Shown here: positions 57,414 through 63,128 of the stretch, in pieces
Layout of the letters: the number at the start of each line of letters is the position of its first letter
How positions within the stretch are numbered: position 1 is the stretch's first letter
From: Agaricicola taiwanensis
GTDB lineage: Bacteria > Pseudomonadota > Alphaproteobacteria > Rhizobiales > Methylopilaceae
Reading direction: 5' to 3'
Length of the DNA: 64,000 bases
Assembly: GCF_014635245.1 (NCBI RefSeq)
Contig: NZ_BMCP01000002.1
Span: 682,001 to 746,000 of the forward strand
Made by a program: the position numbers and the translations under genes
Notes under the pieces: model-generated
What the model saw: only the letters and a program-made list of their open reading frames with translations
The model's database searches: none
Told to the model about the DNA's origin: nothing

Positions 57414-58163
57414 TCAGCGGCGCGCACGGGCTTTAATCTCAGTCATTTCATTGTTCTGCACCGTCGGGCGATTGGTGAGGAAGGCTTCGGTTTGACTACC
57501 ACCGCGCGCCATATGGACGGTGATCTCCCGTCTCAATGCCTCAAGGTCATCGCCCAATGCCGTCGCGACATAATCGTCGTGCCCCTCGCGCCGCGGGCCA
57601 CGGATACCATGCGCCCGGTGATGGGCGGCCCAGTAGAGCTGGAGCCGGCCACGGATGCTCTCCCAGGTCTTGATCAGGATCCTGTGGCCGGTTGCCTCAT
57701 AGACGAAGCCATGGAGCTGAAGTTCGGCGTGAATGCTGGCGGCATCGTCCTCGGCGTCGATGCAGGCCGTCAAAGCCTGATGCCGCTCAAGCAAACCTTT
57801 ATGAAAGCCGTCGTCGCGCCGCTCCCAGATCTGCTCGAACGCAAAGATTTCGAGATTGACGCGCATTGAATAGATTTCGCGAACATCGTCGACCGATAGG
57901 TCGATGACGTGGGTGCCGGTGTAGGGCACCGTGACCAGAAGGCCCTCATCGATAAGCTGACGCATCGCCTCGCGCAGCGGACCGCGGCTTACGCCGAACT
58001 GTTCCGCGAGGTTTGCTTCGATCAGCTGAGACCCGGGCTCAATGTCCCCGTTCAGAATGGCGGCACGCAAGCCATCCGCGATGTGCGCGCGGAAGGTCGC
58101 TTTCGGGACGCGCGCGAGCGGCCGGACACCGGCGGATCTTCCAGTTTCATTTGAAGGCGCCAT
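57414..58163 (-). CDS. GntR family transcriptional regulator (FadR/FCD subfamily)
   Basis: A 249-residue repressor-type protein. The winged helix (about 20-90) shows ILNGDIEPGSQLIEANLAEQFGVSRGPLREAM (given here as the core EANLAEQFGVSRGPLREAM). The FCD ligand domain follows, with metal-binding His and Asp/Arg positions in EIYSMRVNLEIFAFEQ and further helices. It probably controls the ABC/aminotransferase operon in front of which it lies, in response to an amino acid or keto acid. The ATG at 58163 is preferred over a TTG four codons earlier. A palindrome that fits GntR operators lies at 58189-58202. Confidence 0.92.
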   Translation of the reverse strand: MAPSNETGRSAGVRPLARVPKATFRAHIADGLRAAILNGDIEPGSQLIEANLAEQFGVSRGPLREAMRQLIDEGLLVTVPYTGTHVIDLSVDDVREIYSMRVNLEIFAFEQIWERRDDGFHKGLLERHQALTACIDAEDDAASIHAELQLHGFVYEATGHRILIKTWESIRGRLQLYWAAHHRAHGIRGPRREGHDDYVATALGDDLEALRREITVHMARGGSQTEAFLTNRPTVQNNEMTEIKARARR

Positions 58164-58188
58164 GTGGACTGCCAAAATGCTTCTGATC

Positions 58189-58322: not shown

Positions 58323-58358
58323 TTGACATCGGCAACAAGATGAGAACATATAGAGAAC
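58323..58358 (+). promoter_or_regulatory. SOS promoter with perfect LexA box
   Basis: TTGACA at 58323-58328 and, 17 bases later, ACATAT (58346-58351) look like -35 and -10 elements. Overlapping the -10 is GAAC-N7-GAAC (58344-58358), the exact LexA consensus of alphaproteobacteria. LexA bound there would block the promoter until DNA damage. It lies 26 bp before the 36-codon gene and 171 bp before dnaE. Confidence 0.75.
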
Positions 58359-58383
58359 ATATGTGGATAACGGGAGAGATGTC

Positions 58384-58494
58384 ATGACGGATCGCGCACT
58401 TCGAGTCATTATATCGGGTGTGGTCGAGCTGGGTTCGATCGGCTTTTTCATCGCAATGCTGCTGGTCTTCGCCGACGCCGCGCGCCCCATGTGA
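58384..58494 (+). CDS. 36-residue membrane peptide under LexA control, SidA-like
   Basis: A very short gene with its own ribosome site (GGGAGAG, then ATG at 58384). The peptide starts MTDRALR and has one hydrophobic helix (about 8-29) interrupted by a single Glu at 15; it ends ADAARPM. The N-terminal arginines suggest a cytoplasmic N-terminus. It is preceded by a perfect LexA box and followed after 34 bp by dnaE. In Caulobacter, SidA is a 29-residue single-pass SOS-induced peptide that blocks division at FtsW/FtsN; size, topology and regulation match here. Sequence homology to SidA could not be tested, so the function is inference. Confidence 0.7.
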   Translation: MTDRALRVIISGVVELGSIGFFIAMLLVFADAARPM

Positions 58495-58528
58495 GCGCCC
58501 TCGGCGGGACCGCCGGGAGGTTCCTTTC

Positions 58529-61500
58529 ATGGCGCGTGGGCCGGGTTTTGTGCATCTGCACGTGCATTCCGCTTATTCGCTGCTGGAAGGGGCGCTACCG
58601 ATCAAGAAGCTGTCGGCGCTCGCCAGCGCCGACCGGATGCCCGCTCTAGCGCTCACGGACACGAACAATCTGTTCGGCGCACTTGAGTTCTCGGAAACAC
58701 TGGCAAAGGCCGGCATCCAGCCCATCCTTGGCACCTCGCTGACGGTCGAGTTCGGAGACCGGGAAGAACGGCCGGGGCAGCGCCTTGAAGCCAGGCCACG
58801 GCTGGTGCTGCTGGCCCGCAATGAAGCTGGCTGGGTCAATCTCATGGCCCTTTCGAGTATCGCCTTTCTAGAGACGGATCCCTCCGACGGCGTGCATGTT
58901 CCGATTTCGCGGCTTGCTGACCACAGCGAAGGCCTGATCGCATTGACGGGCGGCCCCTTGGGGACGCTGGATGGCTTGCTACGGCAGAATCGATCCGAGC
59001 TTGCGTCCGCAAGGCTCGAAACGATGAGCCGGATGTTCGGGGATGCGCTCTATATCGAGATCCAGCGCCACAATGATCCTTCTGAAGTTCCGGTCGAGCA
59101 GGCGCTGCTGGACATGGCCTATCAGCGTGGCATTCCTCTCGTTGCCACCAATGAGAGCTATTTTCCCAAAAACTCGGATCACGAGGCCCATGACGCCCTG
59201 CTCGCCATTTCCGAGGGGCGTTATGTCGCCGAAGCCGACCGGCGCCAGGTCACCGCGGAGCATGCGTTCCTGTCCCGCGAGGAGATGGTTCGGAAATTTT
59301 CCGATCTTCCTGAAGCAACGGACAACACCATTGAGATCGCACAGCGCTGCGTCTATCGGCTGAAGACCCGCAAGCCGATCCTGCCGCGTTTCACAACCGC
59401 CGATGGTGTGGCCGCTGACGAGGCGGAGGAGTTGAAGCGTCAGGCGCGAGAGGGGCTGGCAATGCGGCTTGCCGCCCATGGTCTGGCCCCTGATGTGACG
59501 GAGGCGGAGTATCAGGCCCGTCTGGAGTACGAGCTCGGCATCATCGAGAAGATGCAGTTCCCCGGATATTTCCTCATCGTTGCCGACTTCATCAAATGGG
59601 CCAAGGATCAAAACATCCCCGTGGGCCCAGGGCGTGGTTCCGGCGCGGGCTCGGTGGTAGCCTGGGCCCTCACCATCACCGACCTTGATCCCATCCGCTT
59701 CGGGCTTCTCTTCGAGCGCTTCCTCAATCCCGAGCGCGTCTCCATGCCGGATTTCGACATCGATTTCTGTCAGGAGCGGCGGGAAGAGGTGATCCGCTAT
59801 GTCCAGGAGCGCTATGGCCAAGACCGTGTCGCCCAGATCATCACCTTCGGCACCCTGCAGGCACGCGGCGTGCTGCGTGACGTCGGGCGTGTGCTGGAGA
59901 TGCCCTATGGGCAGGTGGACAAACTCTGCAAGCTGGTGCCGCAGAACCCGGCCAACCCCGTCACGCTCGCACAGGCCATCAACGACGAGCCCCGGCTGAA
60001 AGAGGCGAGGGAGGAAGAGCCGGTGGTGGCCCGGCTGCTCGACATCGCTTTGAAGCTGGAGGGGCTCTACCGCCACGCCTCGACCCACGCCGCCGGAATC
60101 GTGATCGGCGATCGGCCTCTGCAGCAACTCGTGCCGCTCTACCGCGATCCGCGCTCTGACATGCCGGTCACGCAGTTCAACATGAAATGGGTAGAGCAGG
60201 CGGGGCTGGTCAAATTCGACTTCCTGGGCCTGAAGACGCTGACGACGCTGACCAAGGCGGTGGATCTCGTCAAACGGCGCGGCATCGACATCAATCTTTC
60301 CGCGCTGCCGCTCGACGACAAGCCGGCCTATGAGATCATGTCCCGGGGCGAGACGGTTGGCGTGTTCCAGGTGGAAAGCGCGGGCATGCGCCGCGCTCTC
60401 GTCGACATGAAGCCTGACCGTCTTGAAGACATCATCGCCCTGGTCGCGCTCTACCGGCCGGGGCCGATGGCGAACATCCCGACTTATTGCGCGCGCAAGC
60501 ACGGACGGGAAAGGCCGGAATATCCGCATCCGAAGATCGAACCGGCGCTGGAGGAGACGTTCGGCGTCATCATCTATCAGGAGCAGGTGATGCGGATCGC
60601 GCAGGAGCTCGCCGGCTACTCGCTGGGCGAAGCCGACCTGTTGCGCCGCGCCATGGGCAAGAAGATCAAGGCGGAAATGGCGGCACAAAGCGAGCGGTTC
60701 GTCTCCGGCGCCATGAAGAACGGAGTGGATAGGGCGCAGGCGGAAACCATCTTCGAACTTCTCGCGAAATTCGCCGACTACGGCTTCAACAAGAGCCATG
60801 CCGCGGCCTACGCACTGGTCGCCTATCAGACCGCCTATATGAAGGCCAATTATCCGGTCGAATTCCTGGCAGCCTCCATGACCCTCGATATGGGCAACAC
60901 CGACAAGCTGGCGGAATTCCGCCAGGAGGCGAACCGTCTGGGCATCCAGGTGCTGCCGCCGTCGGTCAATCATTCCGCGGTGGAGTTCGAGGTGGACAAT
61001 GGCGCCATCCGCTATGCACTCGGCGCCGTGAAAGGCGTGGGCGTGCCGGCCGCCGCGGCCATCGTGGCGGCGCGTGACGGCACATCCTTCCGCGGCCTTT
61101 CCGATTTCGCCTGCAGGATCGACGGGCGCGCCGTGGGCAAGAAGGCGCTTGAAAGCCTCGTTCAGGCGGGCGCCTTCGACGAGTTGGAACCCGACCGGGC
61201 CCGTGTGTTCAGCGGGATTGAGCAGATTACCGCCATGGCCCAACGCACCAGCCAGGCCGCCACAATCGGGCAGAATGATTTCTTCGCCTCGCAGATGGAC
61301 GGCGAGCCGATCCGTCTGGCGGCGGTGGAGCCGTGGCTGCCCTGGGACCGGCTGGCGCGGGAATATGATGCGGTCGGCTTCTTCCTGTCGGGGCACCCGC
61401 TGGACGCCTATGCCGGCGTCATGAAGCGGCTGCGCGTGCAGCGCTGGGCGGAGTTCGTCACGTCGGTGAAGGCGGGCGCCACGGCCGGCAAGCTTGCCGC

Positions 61501-61960
61501 GACGGTCGTTGGCCGCCAGGAGCGCCGCACCAAGAGCGGCACCAAGATGGGGATCGTGCGGCTGTCGGATCCGAGCGGACATTATGAAGCCGTCCTCTTC
61601 TCGGAAGGACTGAACGACTATCGTGATCTGTTGGAGCCGAACAGCGCCATCCTGGTGACACTTTCTGCGGCGCTCGACGGCGAGGATGTTCGCGCACGCA
61701 TTCAGCACATCGAACCTTTGGACAAGGCCGCGGCGGCCCAGGGGGGAGGGAACCTTCGCATCTTCCTGCGTGATCCCGTCGTCTTCGAGGGCGTCCAAAA
61801 GCACCTTTCCAAAGGCGACAGCGAGGTCAATGTGGTCATGCTGATCGACGAGGGCCAGACGGAGGTGGAGATCAAGTTGCCCGGCAAGTTCCGGGTCACT
61901 CCGCCCCTGATCGGCGCGATCAAGGCCATACCCGGCATCGTCGAAGTGACGGATGGCTGA
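58529..61960 (+). CDS. dnaE: DNA polymerase III subunit alpha
   Basis: DnaE1, 1143 residues, the replicative polymerase. The PHP domain opens FVHLHVHSAYSLLEGALPI. The polymerase core has GPGRGSGAGSVVAW, and the catalytic aspartates lie in MPDFDIDFCQERREEV; further on are ITFGTLQARGVLRDVGR and YQEQVMRIAQELAGYSLG. A tandem HhH, an OB fold (about 985-1070) and a C-terminal tau-binding region follow. It is DnaE1, not the error-prone DnaE2, since imuA and imuB are absent. The ATG at 58529 has GGGAGG upstream. With the LexA-controlled peptide 34 bp upstream, dnaE may be partly SOS-induced. Confidence 0.96.
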   Translation: MARGPGFVHLHVHSAYSLLEGALPIKKLSALASADRMPALALTDTNNLFGALEFSETLAKAGIQPILGTSLTVEFGDREERPGQRLEARPRLVLLARNEAGWVNLMALSSIAFLETDPSDGVHVPISRLADHSEGLIALTGGPLGTLDGLLRQNRSELASARLETMSRMFGDALYIEIQRHNDPSEVPVEQALLDMAYQRGIPLVATNESYFPKNSDHEAHDALLAISEGRYVAEADRRQVTAEHAFLSREEMVRKFSDLPEATDNTIEIAQRCVYRLKTRKPILPRFTTADGVAADEAEELKRQAREGLAMRLAAHGLAPDVTEAEYQARLEYELGIIEKMQFPGYFLIVADFIKWAKDQNIPVGPGRGSGAGSVVAWALTITDLDPIRFGLLFERFLNPERVSMPDFDIDFCQERREEVIRYVQERYGQDRVAQIITFGTLQARGVLRDVGRVLEMPYGQVDKLCKLVPQNPANPVTLAQAINDEPRLKEAREEEPVVARLLDIALKLEGLYRHASTHAAGIVIGDRPLQQLVPLYRDPRSDMPVTQFNMKWVEQAGLVKFDFLGLKTLTTLTKAVDLVKRRGIDINLSALPLDDKPAYEIMSRGETVGVFQVESAGMRRALVDMKPDRLEDIIALVALYRPGPMANIPTYCARKHGRERPEYPHPKIEPALEETFGVIIYQEQVMRIAQELAGYSLGEADLLRRAMGKKIKAEMAAQSERFVSGAMKNGVDRAQAETIFELLAKFADYGFNKSHAAAYALVAYQTAYMKANYPVEFLAASMTLDMGNTDKLAEFRQEANRLGIQVLPPSVNHSAVEFEVDNGAIRYALGAVKGVGVPAAAAIVAARDGTSFRGLSDFACRIDGRAVGKKALESLVQAGAFDELEPDRARVFSGIEQITAMAQRTSQAATIGQNDFFASQMDGEPIRLAAVEPWLPWDRLAREYDAVGFFLSGHPLDAYAGVMKRLRVQRWAEFVTSVKAGATAGKLAATVVGRQERRTKSGTKMGIVRLSDPSGHYEAVLFSEGLNDYRDLLEPNSAILVTLSAALDGEDVRARIQHIEPLDKAAAAQGGGNLRIFLRDPVVFEGVQKHLSKGDSEVNVVMLIDEGQTEVEIKLPGKFRVTPPLIGAIKAIPGIVEVTDG

Positions 61961-62016: not shown

Positions 62017-62120
62017 CCCGAGCATTCCACACGTGGACATGCAGTGTGAACTGCCCCGGTGCTCCTTGCCTATCCCGCAAGGCGTAAGACGTCCACGGAG
62101 GCTTTAACCGGAGAATGAGA

Positions 62121-63128
62121 ATGGCACTTCCTGACGTTTCCTTGCGTAATCTGCTCGAGTCCGGCGTCCACTTTGGCCATCAGGTCCATCGCTGGAACCC
62201 CAAGATGGGTCCGTATATTTTCGGCTCGCGCAACAACATCCACATCATCGATCTGGCCCAGACGGTTCCGCTTCTGCATCAGGCCCTTCTGGCTGTGTCC
62301 GACACCGTTGCCCGTGGCGGCCGCGTGCTTTTCGTCGGCACCAAGCGGCAGGCCCAGGAGCCGGTGGCCGCTGCTGCTCGGCGCTCGGCACAGTATTTCG
62401 TGAACTCCCGTTGGCTCGGCGGCATGCTGACCAACTGGAAGACGGTGTCCCACTCGATCGCCCGCCTCAAGAAGCTTGAGGAGATGCTCAGCGGCGAAGC
62501 CCAGGGCTTCACCAAGAAGGAGCGCCTGACGCTGTCGCGCGAGCGCGAAAAGCTTGATCGGGCCCTCGGCGGCATCCGCGATATGGGCGGCACCCCGGAT
62601 CTGATCTTCGTGATCGACACCAACAAGGAGCAGATCGCCGTCAAGGAAGCGCGCCGTCTCGGCATTCCCGTGGCAGCCATCCTCGACACCAACAGCGATC
62701 CCGACGGCATCACCTATCCGATCCCGGGCAACGACGACGCCGGTCGTGCGCTGGCGCTTTACTGCGATCTCGTGGCGCGCGCCGTTCTCGACGGTATCGC
62801 CCGTGCACAGGGCGGCGCCGGCATCGACCTCGGTGCCTCAGAGCAGCCCGTGGCTGAAGATCTGGGAGATGCCGCGGCCGAAGCCACAGAGAGCTTCGAG
62901 CTTCTGACCGCACCACGGGGCGCTCCGGACGATCTGTCGAAGCTCCCCGGCGTCGGCCCGCAGCTTGAGAAGAAGCTCAATGAGGCCGGTGTTTTCCACT
63001 ATTGGCAGCTTGCCGCACTGACCCCGGCTGATGCTGAAAAGCTCGACGGCGACCTGAAGCTGTCCGGCCGCATTGGCCGCGAGGGCTGGGTGGACCAGGC
63101 TCGCAACCTCATGGAAGGCGCGGCTTGA
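62121..63128 (+). CDS. rpsB: 30S ribosomal protein S2 with C-terminal HhH extension
   Basis: S2, 335 residues; the usual length is about 240-260. The normal domain starts [20 protein letters not shown] and includes [29 protein letters not shown] and [17 protein letters not shown]. After a linker, residues 269-335 form a small helix-hairpin-helix domain ([20 protein letters not shown]...), of the type also found on other ribosomal and respiratory proteins in Hyphomicrobiales. The ATG at 62121 has GGAG upstream; an ATG two codons earlier is less well placed. tsf follows after 59 bp. Confidence 0.96.

Follow-up and report, generated by a model that had tools for sequence, protein, structure and literature searches.

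A probable SidA-family peptide gene with a LexA box upstream of dnaE in Agaricicola taiwanensis

Results

A short membrane-peptide gene precedes dnaE

Directly upstream of dnaE, the window (the whole 64,000-nucleotide stretch of DNA that was analysed) holds a short gene of its own, preceded by a promoter element, a perfect LexA box and a ribosome-binding motif. The features of the locus are as follows:

57414-58175, minus strand: gene divergent from the peptide gene
58323-58328, plus strand: -35 promoter element TTGACA, 21 bp upstream of the LexA box
58344-58358, no strand assigned: LexA box GAACATATAGAGAAC (GTTCTCTATATGTTC on the other strand), a perfect GAACN7GAAC, the reverse complement of GTTCN7GTTC
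58372-58378, plus strand: Shine-Dalgarno-like GGGAGAG, as read from the sequence, with the ATG 5 nt downstream
58384-58494, plus strand: peptide gene, probably of the SidA family, for a 36-residue single-helix membrane peptide
58497-58521, plus strand: doubtful G+C-rich hairpin covering the likely dnaE ribosome site (58515-58520)
58529-61960, plus strand: dnaE, DNA polymerase III alpha subunit, used as a positional marker and named by its matches rather than by a family search
62115-63128, plus strand: frame 3′ of dnaE, 337 residues

The frame runs from an ATG at 58384 to a stop at 58494 and translates into the 36 amino acids MTDRALRVIISGVVELGSIGFFIAMLLVFADAARPM. Its one hydrophobic stretch has a best 17-residue Kyte-Doolittle mean of 2.35 (calculated for this stretch within a longer version of the frame), and membrane insertion of the peptide is predicted from it. 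With one helix predicted in 36 residues, the peptide has the size and build of the SidA family (single-pass peptides of about 29 residues). An earlier, sequence-only reading of the locus had described a good ribosome site, a single hydrophobic helix and dnaE 34 bp downstream. These descriptions are accurate: GGGAGAG is well placed, the hydrophobic stretch is the only one, and 34 bp separate the peptide stop from the dnaE ATG at 58529 on the same strand.

A comparable membrane ORF follows a random position of the window in 103 of 4000 trials. Searches of Pfam and NCBIfam with five peptides of the family gave no match up to E 10, and a whole-genome profile search returns a single match to the family profile at E≤0.01 in the window's genome. 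The hairpin between the two genes has a folding z-score of -1.22, with 20 of 200 shuffles folding as well or better; being no stronger than shuffled sequence, it was rejected as a regulator of dnaE. On the far side of dnaE, the frame at 62115-63128 is presumably ribosomal protein S2, which it resembles, and its 337-residue product seems to have a C-terminal extension.

The LexA box and the promoter

The perfect box starts 40 bp upstream of the peptide ATG. It is the only GAACN7GAAC site in the 64-kb window, where 1.56 are expected by chance, and genome-wide the pattern occurs at 100 sites against 71 for the reversed pattern, a mild enrichment. Taken by itself the window box is not significant and was rejected as evidence; the case therefore rests on its place and its conservation.

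TTGACA stands 21 bp before the box, so that the box would cover the likely -10 region of the peptide promoter. The sequence-only claim of a perfect LexA box overlapping the promoter is thus borne out for the box and the -35 element, while the overlap at the -10 region is predicted from their spacing. TTGAC is found close to the box at 59 of 88 homologous loci, whereas a control stretch 100 nt further upstream has it at 2 of the 88; its spacing to the box is 7-12 in 51 of those 59 loci and 21 bp in the window. The distance from box to start ranges from 29 to 72 nt in the 88 loci, the search having allowed 15-95.

The same type of box precedes recA, ssb, rmuC and a YifB/ComM-type gene in the window's genome, which supports it as the working LexA box of this organism. 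The box beside ssb, GAACATATACAGAAC, is nearly identical to that of the window. These assignments come from 17 of the 100 sites, chosen by eye, mostly for A+T-rich spacers. Across the ssb box begins an ABC-ATPase that we take to be UvrA (Pfam ABC_tran 23.7 bits, under the family cut-off), and the gene after one further LexA site, presumably imuA, found no match in a profile library search. Elsewhere in the genome, a perfect box GAACATATATAGAAC (L340, G000:C1:930169-930183) is close to the window's box and has no nameable downstream gene and no small membrane ORF.

On the minus strand, a promoter-like site at 58385-58356 overlaps the LexA box. LexA might also affect the minus-strand promoter of the divergent gene at 57414-58175, which from its resemblance we presume to be a GntR-type regulator.

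Conservation upstream of dnaE

Of 121 genomes from the window's order, 118 have a match to the first 184 residues of dnaE; the three without one were left out. We defined a qualifying locus as a perfect box followed within 15-95 nt by an ORF of 24-60 residues with a membrane stretch. A perfect box lies within 700 bp before dnaE in 61 of the 118 genomes, and the box together with a short membrane ORF in 54, the window's included, spanning 28 of the 51 order families sampled. Six permuted-letter box patterns applied to the same 118 genomes give 0-4 boxes and 0 qualifying ORFs, and when the boxes are kept and the downstream sequence is Markov-shuffled, a mean of 3.5 and a maximum of 7 loci qualify. 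The sequence-only reading had staked its case on conservation of the frame and helix before dnaE. Conservation is what we find, and it rules out a chance origin of the gene. The gap to dnaE, measured to its FVHL codon, varies in the order from 38 to 335 nt.

In the wider class draw, dnaE was found in at least 208 of 240 genomes among the matches listed. Genomes outside the order with dnaE among the matches listed number 205, of which 99 were examined (98 and one Caulobacteraceae genome, that of locus L155). Of 102 further rows from the matches listed, 10 were dropped by manual choice, for short flanks or as spare genomes and with no strict rule applied, and 20 regions that had been prepared among the class rows stayed outside the counts. 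Qualifying loci occur in 17 of the 98 other class genomes and in 17 of 30 Caulobacteraceae genomes, with permuted patterns yielding 0 and 0-1 and shuffles at most 3.

Applied to loci that fail on the box, a profile of all peptides adds 8 of 64 in the order at ≥18 bits in sense (antisense 1), 1 of 81 in the class and 11 of 13 in Caulobacteraceae. No accepted copy lies before dnaE in 80 of the 98 other class genomes examined. At L063, an antisense profile match looks like a true inverted peptide gene with two perfect boxes.

A contig scan with dnaE alignment yielded at least 80 loci, many of Rhodospirillales or Rhodobacteraceae groups and none titled Caulobacter. A perfect box with a membrane ORF precedes dnaE in three of 80 loci among the matches listed (L226, L235 and L275); under the definition of box plus ORF, the gene is rare among those 80. 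When all copies are counted, including inverted and relocated ones and those with one-mismatch boxes, the gene is present in 71 of 118 order genomes and 29 of 51 families. The remaining 47 genomes and 22 sampled families hold no accepted copy.

Relatives in the window's family and copies away from dnaE

With the peptide as query, 18 genomes of the window's own family yielded six hits at E≤0.1, its own included. The other five hits are all immediate upstream neighbours of dnaE in the same orientation, and a perfect box lies just upstream of each. G011-G015 and G017 gave no match in this search. A later profile search found the gene before dnaE also in G003, G005, G006 and G008, with a mismatch in the box of G006, and in total 12 of the 18 genomes hold the gene, G007 and G010 among them. 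G003 has, in addition, a second relative (L373, G003:C2:136880-136954) with neither a LexA box nor dnaE alongside.

In 55 order genomes no copy had been recognised before dnaE, and a whole-genome profile search of these found five relocated ones. Two lie away from dnaE on the genome (G100 at 1.6 kb, G059 at 2.5 kb) and three on a different contig from dnaE in draft genomes (G078, G085, G120). Each of the five matches is preceded, at 37-56 nt, by one perfect box or by two; the box therefore goes with the peptide and not only with dnaE. The relocated copies of G085 and G120 (L366 and L367, at about 1453-1478) have two overlapping perfect LexA boxes. The same search found copies still before dnaE with one-mismatch boxes in G081, G080 and G115, the matches in G080 and G115 being weak (E 0.002 and 0.01). 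Two further matches were rejected as likely false: that of G082 lies inside a long coding frame, and that of G104 has no box and a stop within the matched frame.

When 385 class genomes were searched with the profile at E≤1e-4, 15 gave a match, at one place each and always before dnaE: 14 were placed by dnaE coordinates, and G454 likewise, with a perfect box. Most of the 15 had supplied rows of the profile; G454, G272 and G410 had not. This search missed genomes known from synteny, and it thus speaks for the specificity of the profile rather than its sensitivity.

Selection on the peptide and the family consensus

The peptide ORFs of the family evolve as coding sequence. Pooled over 12 usable close groups (of 14 besides Caulobacter, two being excluded for unequal lengths), pN/pS is 0.22 and differences at codon positions 1, 2 and 3 number 55, 32 and 149. 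The ratio is 0.27 in 12 Caulobacter sequences and 0.49-0.60 in three groups (E, H and J).

In an alignment of 98 peptides, many of them closely related, the preferred residues are R/K (66), D/E (88), A (73), L/F (81), S/A (81), F (77) and W (54). The acid heading the helix after R/K, D or E in 88 of 98, is a consensus trait derived here rather than a hallmark taken from the literature. At this position the window peptide carries G, with an E three residues after it, and it retains the core L-G-S-I-G-F-F; G001 and G002, of the same family as the window, have both acids. Conservation shows no significant helical periodicity at 100 degrees (permutation p 0.10-0.11).

The corresponding gene in Caulobacter

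The genus g378 was picked as Caulobacter among 299 Caulobacteraceae genomes by the ParB of PDB entry 6t1f, which we take to be that of Caulobacter: ParB is 78-98 % identical in 42 of the 299, all of this genus. The window's genome belongs to the same class. From the family 30 genomes were chosen (16 of the 42 of g378 and 14 others), one of them without a dnaE match. In all 16 sampled g378 genomes, a peptide fitting the pattern M[IV]R[IV]ARES[LF]ALVSV..FVWMM..VA.[LM]VA is encoded 40-68 nt before the aligned start of dnaE; counted from its ATG it has 29 residues. A perfect box is present at 12 of the 16 loci and a one-mismatch box at 4. Two other Caulobacteraceae loci, L155 and L315 (G197 and G410), have two perfect LexA boxes 18 bp apart before a sidA-like gene.

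Published work describes SidA as an inner-membrane protein of 29 residues (PMC4211646) that LexA controls (PMC12700426), in agreement with the properties given for it in the sequence-only reading. CCNA_02004 is sidA (PMC10769358) and CC1926 is dnaE (PMC1839093); dnaE of C. crescentus was listed as SOS-regulated in earlier regulon work (PMC3323433), which fits a LexA site ahead of the peptide-dnaE gene pair. The 29-residue g378 peptide thus fits SidA, an identity that comes from length, place and control and not from sequence comparison. On the same three grounds, the adjacency of sidA and dnaE, which the sequence-only reading had supposed, holds in 16 of 16 g378 genomes.

Homology of the window peptide to SidA

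Of 13 distinct Caulobacteraceae peptides, 12 score 18.0-25.0 bits and the last 6.5 against a profile of the 54 order peptides from which Caulobacteraceae were excluded; decoys from the same peptides (n=273) have a mean of 1.0 and a maximum of 14.6 bits. In the reverse direction, the SidA profile separates order peptides from decoys poorly, with a best score of 12.4 bits against a decoy maximum of 15.0 and 11 of 54 peptides above the decoys' 99th percentile of 5.8.

Against the order profile built without its own family, the window peptide scores 17.4 bits, as high as which came 0 of 1000 shuffles. Six relatives score 12.7-32.6 bits against that profile, again with 0 of 1000 shuffles as high (1 of 1000 for G009); G001 and G002 reach 32.6 and 31.7 bits against the order profile. 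The SidA profile gives no score on the window peptide directly, and hhalign puts the SidA set with the order at 92 %, the window's family with the order at 88 %, and the SidA set with the window's family at 7 %. With a match through the order profile and none directly, the link between the window peptide and SidA is therefore transitive. The alignment with SidA that the sequence-only reading had proposed as a check fails at this point, the window peptide being too divergent. Its larger claim, equivalence to SidA, stands on the box, the place before dnaE and the transitive homology, and falls short in the direct match and the head-of-helix acid.

Discussion

A proposed SOS division checkpoint

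Building on the observed gene, box, promoter element, family-wide selection, synteny and transitive homology, we consider it probable that the window peptide is a divergent member of the SidA family, under SOS control and delaying division after DNA damage through FtsW/I/N. The expression, topology, target and phenotype of the peptide are what this model predicts. LexA bound to the box over the promoter would silence the gene, as the box and its place suggest. Once DNA is damaged, RecA-driven cleavage of LexA would free the promoter and allow synthesis of the 36-residue peptide. The peptide would then enter the inner membrane, its arginine-bearing N-terminus on the cytoplasmic side as the positive-inside rule predicts, and would rest against FtsW within the FtsW/FtsI/FtsN complex. 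Septal wall synthesis would be kept inactive until repair is done and LexA re-accumulates.

The target is proposed by analogy with Caulobacter. There SidA blocks division at FtsW/FtsI/FtsN, leaving Z-rings and divisome assembly undisturbed; of the FtsW variants that relieve SidA, F145L and A246T also relieve DidA, whereas A31K does not (PMC4211646). Modelling from 2026 puts the SidA helix on TM7 of FtsW with low confidence (PMC13396833). By homology, division arrest by the window peptide would act via FtsW, with FtsN as a weaker partner.

The peptide could be real and SOS-controlled yet have switched, in this lineage, to a different target protein in the divisome or envelope, for instance FtsN or FtsI. 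The displaced acid and the missing direct match to SidA in the window's family point this way, and so does the SOS-independent DidA of Caulobacter, which binds FtsN and not FtsW (PMC4211646). However, G001 and G002, of the same family, have both acids and match the order profile, and we give a changed target only a modest chance.

Peptides of this size also include toxins. TisB, an SOS toxin peptide with a single helix, is LexA-controlled, subject to antisense RNA control and depolarises the membrane; a peptide of the TisB or DinQ sort would slow growth rather than inhibit the divisome. The window peptide has size class, LexA control and a single helix in common with TisB, and one promoter-like minus-strand site is noted on the antisense side of its gene. 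DinQ, an SOS-linked toxic single-helix peptide, is a further precedent (PMC3567139). We nevertheless regard a depolarising toxin as unlikely, as homology and synteny tie the peptide to SidA, which acts on FtsW/I/N (PMC4211646).

The ORF, 34 bp before dnaE, might instead be a leader (uORF) whose translation, or the hairpin over the likely dnaE ribosome site, tunes dnaE after damage, the peptide sequence being of minor importance; sORF25 in the dnaE1 5′-UTR of Sinorhizobium meliloti has been named a possible uORF (PMC10117765). Selection is however seen at the amino-acid level, on a conserved helix with favoured residues; the gaps to dnaE in the order are highly variable, copies away from dnaE retain their LexA box and the hairpin is not distinguished from shuffles. 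A leader is thus very unlikely. A chance ORF beside a chance box has next to no probability: the box alone is expected more than once in the window, but conservation, homology, coding selection and the boxes kept by relocated copies refute it.

Comparison with known systems

SidA of C. crescentus shares with the window peptide LexA control, a length of about 30 residues, a single helix and N-terminal arginines, and lies directly before dnaE in the Caulobacter genomes examined. Its core L-V-S-V-V-G-F is similar to L-G-S-I-G-F-F of the window peptide, the two being linked via intermediate profiles. The differences lie in length (29 against 36 residues), in the absence of a direct profile match, in the R-E pair that heads the SidA helix where the window peptide has its E within the helix, and in the C-terminal tail ADAARPM of the window peptide, which is unlike SidA.

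DidA of Caulobacter is likewise a small, DNA-damage-induced membrane protein that blocks a late step of division, but it is controlled by DriD and not LexA and acts through FtsN (PMC4211646). Gram-positive bacteria have small division inhibitors of their own in the membrane, YneA, SosA, ChiZ and DivS, which are likewise induced by DNA damage. YneA acts on FtsW, where models of low confidence also place ChiZ and SosA (PMC13396833); DivS is named only in the reference lists of the sources. YneA and ChiZ have a LysM domain and SosA an extended helix (PMC13396833), whereas the window peptide has no Pfam or NCBIfam match and its 36 residues leave no room for a LysM domain.

The S. meliloti sORF25 is, like the window gene, a small ORF before dnaE, lying in the 5′-UTR of dnaE1 and translated according to ribosome profiling; the words SOS and LexA are absent from the main text of that paper (PMC10117765). 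It may be the same gene as that of the window peptide. No SidA relative or other SOS division inhibitor of Alphaproteobacteria outside Caulobacter is described in the searchable literature, which omits most subscription papers and is therefore weak evidence of novelty.

Conclusions

The SidA family in Alphaproteobacteria is best read as widespread, patchy and fast-evolving, with its usual home just before dnaE. We think it likely, if with somewhat less assurance than for the window peptide itself, that SidA is not peculiar to Caulobacter and represents an old alphaproteobacterial SOS checkpoint gene found before dnaE in many lineages of the class, whose sequence changes fast and whose LexA switch is carried along even on departure from dnaE.

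If so, the listing of dnaE in SOS regulons of Alphaproteobacteria would reflect at least partly the promoter of this peptide, and we suggest that the LexA site assigned to dnaE is, at least in part, that of the small gene. In genomes where the gap between the two genes is no more than some tens of bp, polymerase supply and the division brake may be coupled through a single transcript. One short gene in a predictable place, in more than half of the sampled order families (29 of 51), makes the proposal testable in laboratory strains. The family also supplies some 100 naturally occurring variants of a minimal peptide whose presumed target is FtsW, and covariation between peptide and FtsW could reveal how a single helix restrains the septal synthase. 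The wide spread of SidA-like genes is thus a larger point than the window gene itself.
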